Source: Brevundimonas mediterranea (lineage in GTDB: Bacteria; Pseudomonadota; Alphaproteobacteria; Caulobacterales; Caulobacteraceae). Taken from it: DNA of 64,000 nt. Location of the stretch: the NCBI RefSeq assembly GCF_011064825.1, contig NZ_CP048751.1:2976001-3040000 (forward strand). Direction: 5' to 3'. The translations under genes were made by a program, and so were the position numbers. Of this stretch, positions 7,925 through 58,701 are shown piece by piece. Within the stretch, counting starts at the first letter, position 1, and every line of letters begins with the position of its first letter. Below the pieces are notes generated by a model. It was not told the DNA's origin. It saw only the letters and a list, made by a program, of their open reading frames with translations, and did not search any database.

Positions 7925-8550
7925 GCTCGCTGGCTGTTCAAGAACGGTTCGAGGCCGCTTTGACGCCGATGGGCGCCGAGATGGTCGGGGCTCTGGGCGT
8001 CGAGGCGCAGGTCGCCTTCGGCGAACTGACCCTGCTGGCGCCGCGCGAGCGGATCGTCGAGGTCATGACGGCGCTGCGCGACCAGTTCGGCTTCCAGCAG
8101 CTGCTGGATCTGTGCGGCGCCGACTATCCGGATCGCGAGGAGCGGTTCGAGGTCGTCTATCACCTGCTGTCGATGACCCGGAACGCCCGGGTCCGCGTCA
8201 AGGTCGTGACCGACGAGGTCCAGCCCGTCGCCACCGTGACCGGGGTCTATCCGTCGGCCGGCTGGTTCGAGCGCGAAGCCTACGACATGTACGGCGTGAT
8301 CTTTTCGGGGCATCCGGACATGCGCCGTCTGCTGACGGACTATGGCTTCGAAGGCCATCCGCTGCGCAAGGACTTCCCGATGACGGGCTATGTCGAGGTC
8401 CGCTACGACGAAGAGCAGAAGCGGGTCGTCTATGAGCCGGTCAAGCTGACGCAGGAATTCCGGACGTTCGACTTCCTGTCGCCGTGGGAAGGCGCCGACT
8501 ACCCGGCGCCCGTGCTTCCCGGCGACGAAAAGGCTGGAGTGAAGGGCTGA
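7921..8550 (+). CDS. nuoC: NADH-quinone oxidoreductase subunit C
   Basis: The 209-residue hydrophilic subunit C is separate from NuoD here, unlike the NuoCD fusion of E. coli. The family signature is [20 protein letters not shown], followed by [24 protein letters not shown]. The C-terminal tail contains FDFLSPWEG. The start overlaps the nuoB stop (ATGA) and the stop overlaps the nuoD ATG by one base, so translation is coupled on both sides. Confidence 0.97.
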
Positions 8551-32012: not shown

Positions 32013-32651
32013 TCACCCAACGGCCGCGTCGCCCCAGATGGCGCGCAGCTGCTGGGGCCGGCGGCAGCCCTGGCGATAGGCCTCGTAATGGGCGCGGTTG
32101 CGGCGGGCGTAGTCCTGATGCTCAGGCCCGGCGGGCCAGAACCGCTGGACCCCGACGACCGGGGTGGTGAAGCTCTTGCCCAGAACGCGCATGGCCGCAT
32201 CCCGTGACGCCACAGCGGCCGCCCGCTGATCCGCCGTGGCGAAGACCGCCGCGCGATAGGACGGCCCCTGGTCGCAGAACTGCCCGTTCGGATCGGTCGG
32301 GTCTATGGTGCGCCAGTAGCGGTCCACCAGGGCGCGATAGCTGACGACGCGGGGATCGAACGTGACCTGGACCGCCTCCATATGGCCGGTCCCGCCGCGC
32401 ACCACCTGCTCATAGGTCGGGTTGGCCGTCTGGCCGCCGACGAAGCCTGATACGGCGGAGCGCACCCCCGGCAGGCCGTCGAACGCCTTTTCCTCGGACC
32501 AGAAACAACCGCCGGCGAAGACGGCCGTCTGAAGCACTGACCGGGCGGGCTGGGCCTGGGCGCGGTCGGTCCGGGGCAGGGCGGCGGTCGTCACGACGAC
32601 CAGGGCGGCCGCAATCGCCGCGCCAGCCAGGAATTTCAGAGACTTGGGCAT
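32013..32651 (-). CDS. msrA: Exported peptide methionine sulfoxide reductase A
   Basis: It reduces methionine-S-sulfoxide in oxidised proteins. The catalytic motif GGCFWSEE contains Cys49, and two later cysteines (FCDQGPSY and QGCRRPQQ) may resolve the disulfide. Unlike the cytoplasmic E. coli enzyme, this 212-residue form begins with a signal peptide (MPKSLKFLAGAAIAAALVVV), so it probably works in the periplasm. ATG 32651 is preceded by AAGGGAG at good spacing; a longer frame to 32696 adds implausible residues. It is divergent from the SOS-box gene at 32801. Confidence 0.92.
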   Translation of the reverse strand: MPKSLKFLAGAAIAAALVVVTTAALPRTDRAQAQPARSVLQTAVFAGGCFWSEEKAFDGLPGVRSAVSGFVGGQTANPTYEQVVRGGTGHMEAVQVTFDPRVVSYRALVDRYWRTIDPTDPNGQFCDQGPSYRAAVFATADQRAAAVASRDAAMRVLGKSFTTPVVGVQRFWPAGPEHQDYARRNRAHYEAYRQGCRRPQQLRAIWGDAAVG

Positions 32652-32736
32652 GGGGACATCTCCCTTTCTCCACAGGCATACGATGCGCCGCTGCAAATGG
32701 TTTCAGACCGTCTCGCCCCTTGGGATAAGACCGGGG

Positions 32737-32765
32737 TTGACGAGAACAATGAGCGAACATAGAAC
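32737..32765 (+). promoter_or_regulatory. Promoter of the 31-codon SOS gene
   Basis: TTGACG at 32737-32742 and TAGAAC at 32760-32765 are 17 bases apart, with the likely start near 32772. The two LexA boxes overlap the spacer, the -10 hexamer and the start site, so bound repressor would block polymerase. Confidence 0.65.
32744..32758 (+). promoter_or_regulatory. LexA box (GAAC-N7-GAAC), upstream copy
   Basis: GAAC at 32744-32747 and GAAC at 32755-32758 are separated by exactly 7 bases, a perfect match to the alphaproteobacterial SOS operator. It lies in the promoter spacer. Confidence 0.88.
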
Positions 32766-32776
32766 AAGGCAAGAAC
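32762..32776 (+). promoter_or_regulatory. LexA box (GAAC-N7-GAAC), downstream copy
   Basis: GAAC at 32762-32765 and GAAC at 32773-32776 are separated by exactly 7 bases, three bases after the first box. Its left half forms part of the -10 hexamer. Confidence 0.88.
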
Positions 32777-32800
32777 ATTCATGTCTGGGGATAAGTCGCC

Positions 32801-32896
32801 ATGCCGCGTTTGATGAGAGATATGCTGTCGCTGGCCTCGTGCAGCGGTTTCGTCTGGATGGTCTGGACCCTGGCCATCAGCGTGACGGCCGCCTGA
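32801..32896 (+). CDS. 31-residue SOS-regulated membrane peptide, candidate SidA-like division inhibitor
   Basis: The frame encodes 31 residues: a short basic head (MPRLMRDM) followed by a single hydrophobic segment with two tryptophans (SGFVWMVWTLAISV) and a tiny tail, so it should sit in the inner membrane. Its ATG is 25 bases after the second of two perfect LexA boxes and a housekeeping promoter, and a hairpin follows its stop. In Caulobacter crescentus SidA is a 29-residue SOS-induced membrane peptide that inhibits division through FtsW/FtsN; size, topology, control and location beside dnaE all fit. Orthology is inferred, not shown, so no symbol is given. A GGGGA ribosome site lies about 9 bases upstream. 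Confidence 0.72.
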   Translation: MPRLMRDMLSLASCSGFVWMVWTLAISVTAA

Positions 32897-32898
32897 TT

Positions 32899-32925
32899 TT
32901 CAGACTCGCACCGACAGAGTCTGAA
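32899..32925 (+). terminator. Hairpin after the SOS peptide gene
   Basis: Arms 32899-32907 and 32917-32925 pair perfectly over 9 bp around a 9-base loop, beginning two bases after the stop codon. Only a short T-containing stretch follows, so it is a probable but weak intrinsic terminator. Confidence 0.5.
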
Positions 32926-33135
32926 TTCGCATTATGTAAAATCAATCGCTTATGAATAATTCTAGACTATTTGGACTGTGTTTTTTCGCCGTGACGGTCT
33001 GAAGCCTCTATCCACAGCGGATCGATGATCGCGCGGCCCGGCTGAAGGTTTGCGGTGTTCCGGCGGGCGGTGATGTGAGACTCGGTCCAGGATGATGCGC
33101 GGCCTCCCTCCGGAGGCGCGACAGGCGGAGGTCCA
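32926..33135 (+). promoter_or_regulatory. dnaE upstream region with an AT-rich patch and a start-proximal hairpin
   Basis: No gene is seen. About 32926-32990 is markedly AT-rich for this genome and includes a TTTTTT run, suggesting the dnaE promoter lies here, though no clear -35/-10 pair stands out. A hairpin (33102-33107 with 33112-33117, loop CTCC) sits 18 bases before the dnaE GTG and could influence access to the GGCGGAGG ribosome site. Confidence 0.4.
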
Positions 33136-36596
<3,461 letters not shown>

Positions 36597-36597
<1 letters not shown>

Positions 36598-39077: not shown

Positions 39078-40019
39078 ATGGCCGAGATCACTGCCGCCCT
39101 CGTGAAGGAACTCCGCGAGCGTTCGGGCGTCGGCATGATGGACTGCAAGAAGGCGCTGGTCGAAAACGACGGCAACATCGAAGCAGCAATCGACTGGCTC
39201 CGCGCCAAGGGCCTGTCCAAGGCCGCCAAGAAGGCCGACCGCGTCGCCGCCGAGGGCCTGGTCGCCGTGGCGTCCAAGGAAGACGGCAAGGGCGAAGTCG
39301 CCGCCGCCATCGAGTTCAACGCGGAAACCGACTTCGTCGCCCGTAACGAACTGTTCCAGAACGCCGCCAAGTCGTTCGCCCAGCTGGGCCTGGAGCATCA
39401 CACCGTCGAGGCCCTGCACGGCGCCGAACTGGAAGCCGGCAAGACGGTCCAGGACGAAGTGACCAACATGATCGCCACCATCGGCGAGAACATGCAGCTG
39501 CGCCGCGCCGCCCGCCTGTCGGTGTCGGAAGGCGTCGTCTCGACCTATGTCCACAACGCGGTTTCGCCCGGCGTGGGCCGTATCGGCGTGCTGGTCGCCC
39601 TGGAAGGCGAGGGCGACAAGACCGCCCTGCGCGAACTGGGCCGCAAGATCGCCATGCACGTCGCCGCCACGGCGCCGCTGTCGCTGAACACGGACGACCT
39701 GGACCCCGCCGCCATCGAGAAGGAACGCACCGTCCTGACCGAAAAGGCCAAGGAAGAAGGCCGTCCCGAAGCCATGATCGCCAAGATCGTGGAAGGCCAG
39801 ATCAACAAGTTCCAGAAGGACGTGGTGCTGTCCAAGCAGCCCTTCGTCATGGACCCGGACGTGACCATCGAACAACTGGTCGCCAACTCGGCCAAGGAAC
39901 TGGGCTCCTCCAACCTGCACCTGGCCGGCTTCGTCCGTCTGGCGCTGGGTGAAGGCGTCGAGAAGGTCGAAGGCCCCGACTTCGCGTCGGAAGTCGCCTC
40001 GATGATGGGCGGCAACTAA
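39078..40019 (+). CDS. tsf: Elongation factor Ts
   Basis: EF-Ts releases GDP from EF-Tu. The 313-residue protein has the N-terminal UBA-like domain with [15 protein letters not shown] and [10 protein letters not shown], then the core with [13 protein letters not shown] second dimerisation part contains [15 protein letters not shown] and [14 protein letters not shown] 39078 follows a strong AAGGAGAAG site. Length is normal for the family. Confidence 0.97.
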
Positions 40020-55771: not shown

Positions 55772-57947
55772 GGGGGAAGGGTCCGTAAGCGAGGCCCTTA
55801 TACGCCCCGAGACGACAAAGCCTACCCCCGGCGCGCGATTGCGGGCCTGGTTGGAGGACGAGGCTGCGGCGCAGAGGCTGAGATGGCGGCTGTGGGCGCC
55901 GGTGGCCTTTGGCGGAGGCGGGGCGATCTATTTCGCCCTGCGGTCGGAGCCGGCCCTGTGGCCGCTGCTGCTCGGGGCGATCGTCTCCGGCGCGGGCTGG
56001 CTGGCGGCGCGACGGCGGGGATGGGCGCGGCGCCTGACCTGGCCGCTGATGATGCTGGCCTGTCTGGCCGGCGGGCTGGCGGCGGCCAAGATTCGCACGG
56101 AGATGGTGGCGGCGCCCATCGCTCCAGCCCTGGGTGAAGCGACGGTGATCGAGGCCTGGGTGGTGGATGTGGACAGCCCCGGCCAGAGGGGCGCGCGGAT
56201 CGTGGTCGCGCCGGTCAGGATTCGGGGGCTGGCGCCGGACCGGACGCCGGTTCGGCTCAGGGCCACGGTGCGGGGTGATCCGCCCCGGCCCGGCGAGGCG
56301 GTCCGTCTGTTCGCCATTCTCAATCCGCCGCCCGCACCGGCCAGCCCCGGCGCCTATGACTTCGGCCGCAACGCCTTTTTCCAGGGCATGGGCGGGATCG
56401 CCTTCGCCCTGGGGGAGACGCGACGGCTCGACCTGCCGTCGGCGCCGTGGCGGCTGCGCCTGGAAATGGCGGTGAACAGCGCCCGCTACGCCCTGGCCGA
56501 AAGGATCGTGGCGCGGCTGGGCGAACGGACGGGCGGGATCGCGGCGGCCATGACCACCAGCCATGAGACCTGGATCAGCCAGGAGGACATGGACGTGATG
56601 CGGGATTCGGGCCTGGCGCACATTCTGTCGGTGTCGGGCCTGCACATGGCCATCGTCGGCGGCTTCGTCTTTTTCGCGGCCCGACTGGGCGTGGCGGCCT
56701 GGCCGTGGCTGGCGTTGCGGGTTCCCGGCAAGAAGGTCGCGGCCCTGGCCGGACTGACGGCGGTCGGCGCCTATCTGGTCGTGTCGGGCGCGCCGCCGCC
56801 GGCCGAGCGGGCCGCGATCACGGCCTCCATCGCCTTTCTGGCCATACTGCTGGATCGGCAGGCGGTGACGATGCATGGCCTGGCTGTGGCGGCCTTTGTG
56901 GTGTTGGCCATCCAGCCCGAGGCCATCGTCACGCCGGGCTTCCAGATGTCCTTTGCGGCCACGGCGGCCCTGGTGGCCCTGGTCGAGGTCTGGCCGCAGC
57001 GGATGCGAGAGATTTCGGCGCCCTGGCCCATCGTGGCGGTGCAGAGGTTCGGCGGCTGGTTGACGGCGGCGGTGGCGGCCAGCGTCGTGGCCGGACTGGC
57101 GACGGGGCCGTTCGCCATGCAGCATTTCAACCGCACGGCCATGTACGGGCTTCTGGCCAATCTGGGCACGGCGCCGGTCGCGGATTTCGTCCTGATGCCG
57201 GCTCTGGCTCTGGGAGCGGCGTTGGAGCCCTTGGGCCTTGGCGGGCCTTTCCTGGCGGTGGCGGGGTGGGGCGTCGATCTGATGCTGGCGATCGGGGCTT
57301 GGACGGCGGGGCTGCCGGGTGCGGTGCAGACGGTGGCCAGCGCGCCGGACTATGTGCTGCCCATGGCCTTTCTGGGGGTGTTGTTCGTCTGTCTGTGGCA
57401 GGGGCGGCTGAGGTGGCTGGGCCTGCCGCTGGCGGCGGCGGTTCTGGTCTGGCCCAGGGCGCCGACGCCGGATCTCTGGATCGGGGACGGCGGGACCAAC
57501 GCCGCTTTTCATCACCAGGCCCAGGCTGTCGTGATCCGGCCCGGCGTGCGCGCCTTCGCCGTTGATCTTTGGTCGCGGCGGCGGGGCCTGACGACGGCGG
57601 ATCGGCCGGAGGCGGGCTGGACGTGCGACCGGTCTTCCTGTCGGCCGGAGACGCCGGAAGCCGGGCCGGTCGCCCTGTGGTGGGGGCGCGAGGCCCCGGA
57701 TGCGGAGCAGATGGCCGACCTGTGTCGGGCGGCGTCCGTCGTCAGCGTGCGGGCTGCGGTCGCCGCCCTGCCGGCCTCATGCGACGGCCGTCTGGTGCTC
57801 GACGGCGTCGATTTCACGCGCGGCGGGGCGGTGGAGTTGTGGCGGGACGGAGTGGACCGCTGGAAGGCGGTGTGGACGGCCGACGTGCGCGGGGATCGCC
57901 CCTGGGCGCGTCAGCCGGATCCGGACCTCAGTGATAGCGGCGCATGA
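55770..57947 (+). CDS. comEC: ComEC/Rec2-family DNA-uptake channel
   Basis: It is the inner-membrane channel through which single-stranded DNA enters during natural transformation. The 725-residue protein has N-terminal helices with a DUF4131-type soluble part (about residues 35-190) and a competence domain (about 230-500) with [19 protein letters not shown] and [18 protein letters not shown]. The C-terminal region lacks the H-x-H-x-D-H of the metallo-beta-lactamase domain present in Bacillus ComEC. ATG 55770 has an AAGGTGAGG site; an in-frame start at 55743 lies deeper in gltX. Its end overlaps lexA by 20 bases. Confidence 0.9.
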
Positions 57948-58629
57948 GGCCGACCAGCTTGCCCTGGACCTCGACCTGGTCGGGACCGAAGATTCGGGTC
58001 TCGTAGTTGCGGTTGGCGGGCTCCAGGGCGATGGAGCCGCCCTTGCGACGCAGACGCTTCAACGTGGCCTCTTCGCCCTCGACCAAGGCCACGACGATCT
58101 CGCCGTTGTTGGCCGTGTCGCCGCGACGGATGACCACCAGATCGCCGTTCAGGATGCCGGCCTCGATCATCGAGTCGCCCTCGATCTCGAGGAGGTAATG
58201 ATCGCCCTTGCCCAGCATGGATTCGGGCACCGACAGGCGCTCCTGCTCGTGCTGGATGGCGGCGATGGGGGTGCCGGCGGCGATCTTGCCCAGCAGGGGC
58301 AGTTCGCGGGTGTCGTTGGCGGCCGAGACCGCAGCGGGGCGTGGCGCGCCGCCGCCGCCTTCGATGACGTCGGGTTTGAAGCCGGCCCGGCCGCGCGGTG
58401 CGCCGGCGGTGGCCTGTTCCGGCAGTTTGGTCACTTCCAGGGCGCGGGCGCGGTGGGCGAGGCGGCGGATGAAGCCGCGTTCCTCCAGCGCCGTGATCAG
58501 CCGGTGGATGCCCGACTTGGACGCCAGATCCAGCGCCTCCTTCATCTCGTCGAACGAGGGGGAGACGCCGGTCTCCTGGATCCGTTCGTGGATGAACATC
58601 AGCAGTTCGTGCTGCTTGCGCGTGAGCAT
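57928..58629 (-). CDS. lexA: SOS repressor LexA
   Basis: The 233-residue repressor has an N-terminal winged-helix domain ([20 protein letters not shown], then [16 protein letters not shown] in the recognition region), a linker rich in Gly/Pro/Ala and a C-terminal S24 autoprotease. The self-cleavage site is Ala118-Gly119 in GKIAAGTPI, and the catalytic dyad is Ser153 (GDSM) and Lys191 (ATLKRL). RecA-stimulated cleavage derepresses the SOS regulon. Two GAAC-N7-GAAC-type operators lie in its own promoter, so it should be autoregulated; the gene at 32801 is a predicted target. Confidence 0.97.
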
Positions 58630-58662: not shown

Positions 58663-58677
58663 GAACGGGCCGTGAAC
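58663..58677 (+). promoter_or_regulatory. LexA box in the lexA leader
   Basis: GAAC at 58663-58666 and GAAC at 58674-58677 are separated by exactly 7 bases. On the lexA strand it reads GTTC-N7-GTTC and lies about 34-48 bases before the lexA start codon. Confidence 0.85.
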
Positions 58678-58686
58678 ATTGACGAT

Positions 58687-58701
58687 GTTCTGTAAGTGTT
58701 C
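58687..58701 (-). promoter_or_regulatory. LexA box overlapping the lexA -10 element
   Basis: On the lexA strand, GAAC-N7-GAAC runs from 58701 to 58687. Its second half forms most of the CAGAAC -10 hexamer, 9 bases from the other box, which is in opposite orientation. Confidence 0.88.

Follow-up and report, generated by a model that had tools for sequence, protein, structure and literature searches.

Organisation of the locus

The DNA analysed here, hereafter the window, is a stretch of 64,000 nucleotides from the chromosome of Brevundimonas mediterranea. Near its middle lies a short reading frame of 31 codons, preceded by two GAAC-N7-GAAC motifs and by promoter-like hexamers, and followed by an inverted repeat and by a gene for the alpha subunit of DNA polymerase III (Table 1). 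We take this last gene to be dnaE from recognition of its protein, no family search being behind the name. An earlier sequence-only reading of this DNA had described the two boxes, the TTGACG-N17-TAGAAC element, the ATG, the 31 codons and the stop, and all of them are located correctly to the base. That reading also placed a hairpin after the stop codon: an inverted repeat is indeed present, but it has no T-run, and a scan of 32650-33200 returned neither a canonical terminator nor a terminator-like site after the gene. By eye, repeats resembling it are recognised in several near relatives, one of which (L065) has different paired bases, and an exact pair of arms of at least 6 bases was not found in most of the 25 gap loci listed. 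A described structured RNA was also considered and discarded, as a search of 32600-33200 against Rfam returned nothing at E ≤ 1.

Table 1. Position of the features discussed (coordinates of the window, except for the first line)
Feature	Position	Strand	Remarks
Window	2976001-3040000		Part of the 3.38 Mb chromosome of Brevundimonas mediterranea
Gene on the other side of sidA	32013-32696		Near sidA in part of the loci only
-35-like hexamer TTGACG	32737-32742	+	Kept, together with TAGAAC, in 68 of 99 distinct Brevundimonas regions
Putative LexA box 1, GAACAATGAGCGAAC	32744-32758	+	GAAC-N7-GAAC; part of conserved array; same motif before lexA and recA
-10-like hexamer TAGAAC	32760-32765	+	Overlaps LexA box 2; 17 bases after TTGACG
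Putative LexA box 2, GAACAAGGCAAGAAC	32762-32776	+	GAAC-N7-GAAC; part of conserved array
sidA ortholog	32801-32896	+	31 codons and TGA (32894-32896); peptide MPRLMRDMLSLASCSGFVWMVWTLAISVTAA
Inverted repeat	32899-32925	+	9-bp arms (32899-32907 and 32917-32925), 9-base loop, no T-run
dnaE (DNA polymerase III alpha)	33136-36597	+	Syntenic partner downstream
lexA, repressor of the SOS regulon	57928-58629	-	TIGR00498, 187.8 bits, above cut-off
Two GAAC-N7-GAAC boxes before lexA	58663-58677 and 58687-58701	+ and -	Internal control for the operator motif

Conservation of the 31-codon frame

Taken alone, the frame is unremarkable, and its length gives no evidence for a gene: at 483 of 1200 random points an ATG-initiated frame of at least 31 codons starts within 60 bp. 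The reality of the gene follows instead from its conservation. Of 37 genomes of the genus, that of the window included, 36 have the peptide, the only miss being a 70% complete assembly (G025); in a second sample, drawn from the family and searched with a 20-row alignment, it was found in all 40 genomes of the genus. The sequence-only reading depended on a frame kept in related genomes, and the frame is kept. B. mediterranea has an identical peptide, and relatives of it are encoded at at least 80 named loci, most of them titled Brevundimonas, the others being one MAG under the title Bordetella and unplaced assemblies labelled Caulobacterales, Alphaproteobacteria or bacterium.

The pattern of substitutions points in the same direction. 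Over the first 29 codons of 92 distinct coding sequences, a set from which sequences with a stop or with fewer than 29 codons had been dropped, dN/dS was 0.30 in frame, the other two frames giving 0.99 and 2.25; over the 21 closest coding sequences it was 0.20. A chance reading frame is rejected on conservation together with dN/dS, and the 31-codon frame is a real gene, which the sequence-only reading had recognised correctly. A candidate second copy in the same genome (G000:C1:2235561, E 0.02) lies inside a 143-residue frame and was taken as a chance match. Relatives on plasmids or phages were sought by tblastn with the window peptide, a single 31-residue query to which such a search is insensitive, and none appeared at E ≤ 1 in either collection.

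Relationship to SidA

The NCBIfam model NF033228.1 (div_inhib_SidA) matches residues 1-25 of the peptide to model positions 1-25 of 29, with an E-value of 8.4e-6. The score of 25.6 bits is lower than the curated NCBI equivalog cut-off of 35, a naming threshold and not a biological trait. The sequence-only reading had supposed that the gene was missed because of its length; the sub-threshold profile score offers a more specific reason and would be a likelier cause of a missing label. The model matches 19 of 20 diverse Brevundimonas members at E ≤ 1. Among 199 Caulobacteraceae genomes, 176 have a SidA-profile match at E ≤ 0.1 and 118 a match above the cut-off, the corresponding figures for the window's genus being 37/40 and 1/40 (36.4 bits). 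The SidA search also matches four of 14 control genomes, E. coli, B. subtilis and Caulobacter vibrioides among them, with one passing the cut-off; E-values near 0.1 per genome therefore mean little, and the identity of the peptide leans on locus and conservation.

Peptides encoded in the same genus and at the same locus bridge the distance between the window peptide and the Caulobacter type, represented for example by L144. Specifically, MGKVVRETLSLASCCGFVWMVCIVAQYAA (L230) scores 36.4 bits, above the cut-off, and MARVVRESLSLASVGAFVWMVWSVAAIVA (L232) scores 32.4 bits. In a 21-row alignment of the family, F17, V18 and M20 are invariant, and M1, R6, L9, L11, S13 and W19 nearly so. SidA of Caulobacter crescentus (CCNA_02004; NF033228) is presented in the accessible text of PMC4211646 as a small single-helix peptide of 29 amino acids. 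The window peptide, with its 31 residues and FVWMVW in the middle, is two residues longer, differs from the Caulobacter type in its last third (residues 21-31) and stays below the NCBI cut-off. Its predicted structure agrees with that description, AlphaFold2 giving one helix over residues 2-30 (mean pLDDT 92.4), and the best 19-residue Kyte-Doolittle mean is 1.67, at residues 8-26. The two arginines R3 and R6 suggest that the N-terminus is probably inside.

Promoter and operator array

The two boxes of the window are separated by three bases, and the sidA ATG lies 24 bases past box 2. The -35-like hexamer abuts box 1 and the -10-like hexamer overlaps box 2, so that bound LexA should cover both hexamers. 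A strict TTGACA/TATAAT sigma-70 rule predicts no promoter in 32650-33200; TAGAAC departs from TATAAT and conforms to TANAWC, the housekeeping -10 consensus of Caulobacter. GAAC-N7-GAAC occurs six times in the window against 1.48 expected, a number reached in none of 100 shuffles. The exact tandem of boxes occurs once, and in none of 300 first-order Markov windows; similarly, there is one pair of boxes on the same strand within 60 bp, against a mean of 0.003. Two more exact sites are found at 39348-39362 (+) and 7936-7950 (-).

The motif is shared with the SOS genes of the same genome. Besides the boxes before lexA, the box GAACATCTTGTGAAC lies at 1971503-1971517 ahead of recA, whose match starts at G000:C1:1971664. 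The published Caulobacter LexA box, given as GTTC-N7-GTTC in the available part of PMC9578287, is the same motif read on the opposite strand. At the level of the sequence, the locus thus has a LexA-type operator over its promoter, with exact boxes, a conserved array and the boxes of lexA and recA all concurring.

Across the family, the unit that is conserved is an array of four half-sites, GAAC-N7-GAAC-N(2-5)-GAAC-N7-GAAC, with 16 scored bases. Allowing two mismatches in 16 at most, we find it upstream of the gene in 96 of 99 distinct Brevundimonas regions, 44 of which have a perfect array, and in 55 of 62 non-Brevundimonas ones, of which one is perfect; base-shuffled controls give 0.1 and 0, respectively. 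The 99 regions derive from 143 loci of the genus after removal of those too short or identical, and a second copy in one genome (L215, see below) is excluded from the other count. Counted on sites with no more than four mismatches, the middle gap is of three bases in 96/98 Brevundimonas sites and in 44/57 of the others. Among the 57 non-Brevundimonas sites, half-site 2 reads GAAT in 46, and half-site 4 reads CAAC in 22, GAAA in 12 and GAAC in 12; among the 98 of the genus, half-site 2 reads GAAC in 46 and CAAC in 42, and half-site 4 reads GAAC in 86. Both hexamers, TTGACG and TAGAAC, stand at the offsets seen in the window in 68 of 99 distinct Brevundimonas regions; TAGAAC alone does so in 95, four of its six bases being those of the third half-site.

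The sequence-only reading had proposed to check whether homologs next to dnaE keep the boxes: the four-half-site array is kept family-wide, but exact boxes are less universal. An exact GAAC-N7-GAAC is absent within 70 bases in 12 of 99 Brevundimonas regions. Whereas the window has two exact boxes, the 30 loci fetched among those above the SidA cut-off (L138-L167) mostly have a degenerate array: 14 of them have no exact box within 150 bases and carry the degenerate array only, and in 14 of 30 the strong, identical 15-mer GAACATCTTGTGAAC lies further upstream of the peptide. These sequences lead us to infer that the double operator was imperfect in the ancestor and became sharper in some Brevundimonas, the window included. 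With the array conserved, it is plausible that the double operator would serve for tight repression, as the sequence-only reading had suggested.

Linkage to dnaE

At 205 of 206 loci (143 of the window's genus), dnaE lies directly downstream of the sidA-like frame and on the same strand, in a set picked by profile match that includes some genomes twice and is not a random sample for synteny. The 30 fetched loci above the cut-off, out of 118 such genomes, are all placed upstream of dnaE as in the window; in addition, they have LexA-type boxes upstream and share the FVWM core. The gene on the other side of sidA accompanies it in part of the loci only, so the linkage to dnaE is not a mere consequence of the closeness of the genomes. 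The exception is L215 (G081:C3:315102-315185, minus strand), the second of two copies in genome G081; the other one, L214, does precede dnaE. L215 encodes the SidA-like peptide MTRLIRETLAFAAAATFVWAVCVGALVVGDLFRSLPA away from dnaE, has no exact LexA box within 150 bases upstream, and is possibly a paralog.

In C. crescentus the two genes are presumably adjacent as well, judging from the gene numbering. The published tags, CCNA_02004 for sidA (PMC10769358) and CC1926 for dnaE (PMC1839093), as they read in the excerpts of the two papers, agree with this arrangement. The portions of the literature available on Brevundimonas SidA, SOS and LexA box and on Caulobacter dnaE and SidA contain no description of the window gene or of the pairing of sidA with dnaE, and the pairing may be in print in the original work on SidA and the SOS regulon. 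Likewise, the portions available of the literature naming Brevundimonas hold no expression or binding data on the sidA ortholog.

Outside Brevundimonas, 61 of the 62 loci have a gap of 10-59 bases between the two genes, counted to the aligned start of dnaE, and the remaining one has 123 bases; in Brevundimonas the gap ranges from 29 to 454 bases, with 239 in the window. In 12 aligned Brevundimonas loci with a long gap, GGTTT (33047-33051) and most of GATGTGAGACTC (33072-33083) are invariant, an indication that in this lineage dnaE is served by a regulated promoter of its own. The second element holds a GANTC site, which we take to be of the CcrM type. The strongly conserved block 33047-33083 is a probable dnaE promoter or regulator site, and in the lineage of the window dnaE appears to have a conserved upstream block of its own. 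As a separate observation, one-mismatch DnaA-box-like sites (TTATCCACA) are found at 33008-33016 (+), before dnaE, and at 32786-32794 (-), in the sidA leader; as the window has seven sites of this kind where 3.4 are expected, they are weak candidates.

Taken together, the profile match, the locus next to dnaE, the shared operator array and the bridging sequences argue for orthology with SidA, as the sequence-only reading had proposed. It is highly probable that the locus is the positional ortholog of Caulobacter sidA with a SidA-type role, a confidence that covers both the orthology and the type of role.

Distribution in the Caulobacteraceae

With a 21-row profile and E ≤ 0.001, 41 of 200 genomes of the order were positive, all 41 in Caulobacteraceae, together with three of 289 genomes of the class, all in the window's genus; the first search had returned only weak matches outside the genus (best E 0.02). 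In these partial samples, SidA is likely restricted to Caulobacteraceae. Twenty-four genomes were followed up, namely 17 without a SidA-profile match (taken from 20 such genomes outside the genus; G101 and G160 weakly match the other profile) and seven with matches at E 0.06-0.09 only. A dnaE locus was retrieved at E ≤ 1e-50 in 18 of them, and the other six had no dnaE match at that threshold.

In genus g24, all 14 loci have the array and a peptide of 28-29 residues upstream of dnaE, for example MVSAVHNVLSFAAVAGFVVVMCHLMSLAA, where the array is a relaxed pattern that has no shuffle control and the peptides were chosen by eye among candidate frames. In the window, the relaxed pattern has a single match, which falls at sidA. 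As the g24 loci carry both array and peptide, their negative results are misses of the profile. Neither array nor peptide was seen within about 330 bases at L272, L276 and L278 (genera g27, g26 and g27), and the locus L277 is truncated where its contig stops. The g24 peptides look like a very diverged form of SidA, with LSFASVAGFVW in L218-L222 and an LSFAAVAGFV-like stretch, which does not have that W, in L261-L271 and L273-L275; L264, L274 and L275 have a further, overlapping copy of the array upstream. Separately, an assembly that is 66% complete has a second peptide match at G005:C128:3446-3529 (61% identity, E 9.5e-8), possibly a contamination or a paralog.

Comparison with known systems

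TisB is a short, SOS-induced, single-helix peptide of the inner membrane, toxic and controlled by an antisense RNA, and SulA of E. coli, an SOS-induced inhibitor of division like SidA, is not a short membrane peptide. E. coli DinQ is also a short SOS-induced single-helix inner-membrane peptide but, according to the accessible text of PMC3567139, it is toxic and antisense-RNA controlled, whereas the window peptide has no Pfam match. The target of SulA differs too, since it disrupts FtsZ polymerisation (PMC4211646, in part). DidA of Caulobacter is, in the same excerpt, a small membrane inhibitor of division acting on FtsW/FtsI/FtsN; it is, however, SOS-independent (DriD) and binds FtsN, while the window gene has LexA boxes and the sequence of SidA. 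Bacillus YneA and Staphylococcus SosA are SOS-induced division inhibitors of another phylum (excerpts of PMC13396833 and, for SosA, PMC6851548), likened here by function and not by sequence; YneA is reported to act through FtsW (PMC13396833, in part). The window gene is an ortholog of a known family, of interest for its linkage to dnaE, for the conservation of its double operator and for the gap in annotation.

Proposed action and alternative explanations

In undamaged cells, LexA bound to the two tandem operators would keep sidA off. Upon DNA damage, RecA-stimulated cleavage of LexA would free the promoter and the 31-residue single-helix peptide would be made and inserted in the inner membrane. 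There, it would hold the assembled FtsW/FtsI/FtsN complex in an inactive state, and septal wall synthesis and division would halt until repair is done. We infer LexA binding, induction by damage, topology, binding to FtsW/FtsN and division arrest from the sequence. As regards the partner, in the available part of PMC4211646 the FtsW substitution A31K suppresses SidA and not DidA, and F145L and A246T suppress both. In FtsW of the window's own genome (L245), the positions that align with A31, F145 and A246, as numbered by hand on L238, are occupied by A, F and A; in a relative (L243), position 31 is G. The partner site is thus present, which is compatible with the same mechanism and no proof of it; being conserved anyway, FtsW makes the agreement of three residues weak evidence.

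This agreement nevertheless bears on the possibility that the peptide is SidA by descent with a shifted main target, either FtsN/FtsI first or another membrane protein. Such a shift would fit a peptide in which F17, V18 and M20 are invariant and W19 is nearly so, with residues 21-31 unlike the Caulobacter type, but the three suppressor-site residues of its own FtsW are kept and both the locus and the operator array are unchanged, and we regard the shift as unlikely. It would share the orthology of the preferred SidA-type reading and differ from it in the target. A toxin of the TisB or DinQ kind, induced by the SOS response and damaging or depolarising the inner membrane without acting via the divisome, would also fit the size, the single hydrophobic helix and the SOS operators. 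Sequence and locus match SidA instead, whose interaction with FtsW is published, and the traits of a type I toxin-antitoxin system that were looked for did not appear: no Pfam family is matched at E ≤ 1, and the Rfam search reported above gave no described antisense RNA nearby, though one not yet described may exist. We consider a toxin of this kind very improbable.

The most different explanation does away with the peptide, the conserved unit being a LexA-controlled dnaE promoter and the frame an incidental part of a leader RNA. In the loci studied the array does precede dnaE, and a frame of such size arises by chance at about 40% of points. Yet the frame, its start, a length of about 28-31 residues and the hydrophobic core are kept over many genera, and synonymous changes prevail in frame 0 only, leaving a leader RNA with next to no probability. 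A SidA-type inhibitor of division is, among these explanations, the one retained here.

Implications

The locus extends SidA to a diverged and mostly sub-threshold branch. For annotation, in a genus where the gene turned up in 40 of 40 genomes, the SidA model scores below its cut-off in 39 of 40, a gap that can be corrected. For the study of the inhibitor, the branch offers naturally occurring SidA variants in which some positions are fixed and others changed, a series useful for finding the contacts with FtsW.

The pairing of the two genes behind a four-half-site array raises the question of whether SOS control extends to the replicative polymerase in this group. A tentative scenario, to which we give a minor share of probability, is that sidA and dnaE of the Caulobacteraceae formed an ancestral LexA-controlled unit with one SOS promoter, and that the two genes have since come apart in the lineage of the window. 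If this were true, DNA damage would raise the supply of polymerase and stop cell division from one switch.
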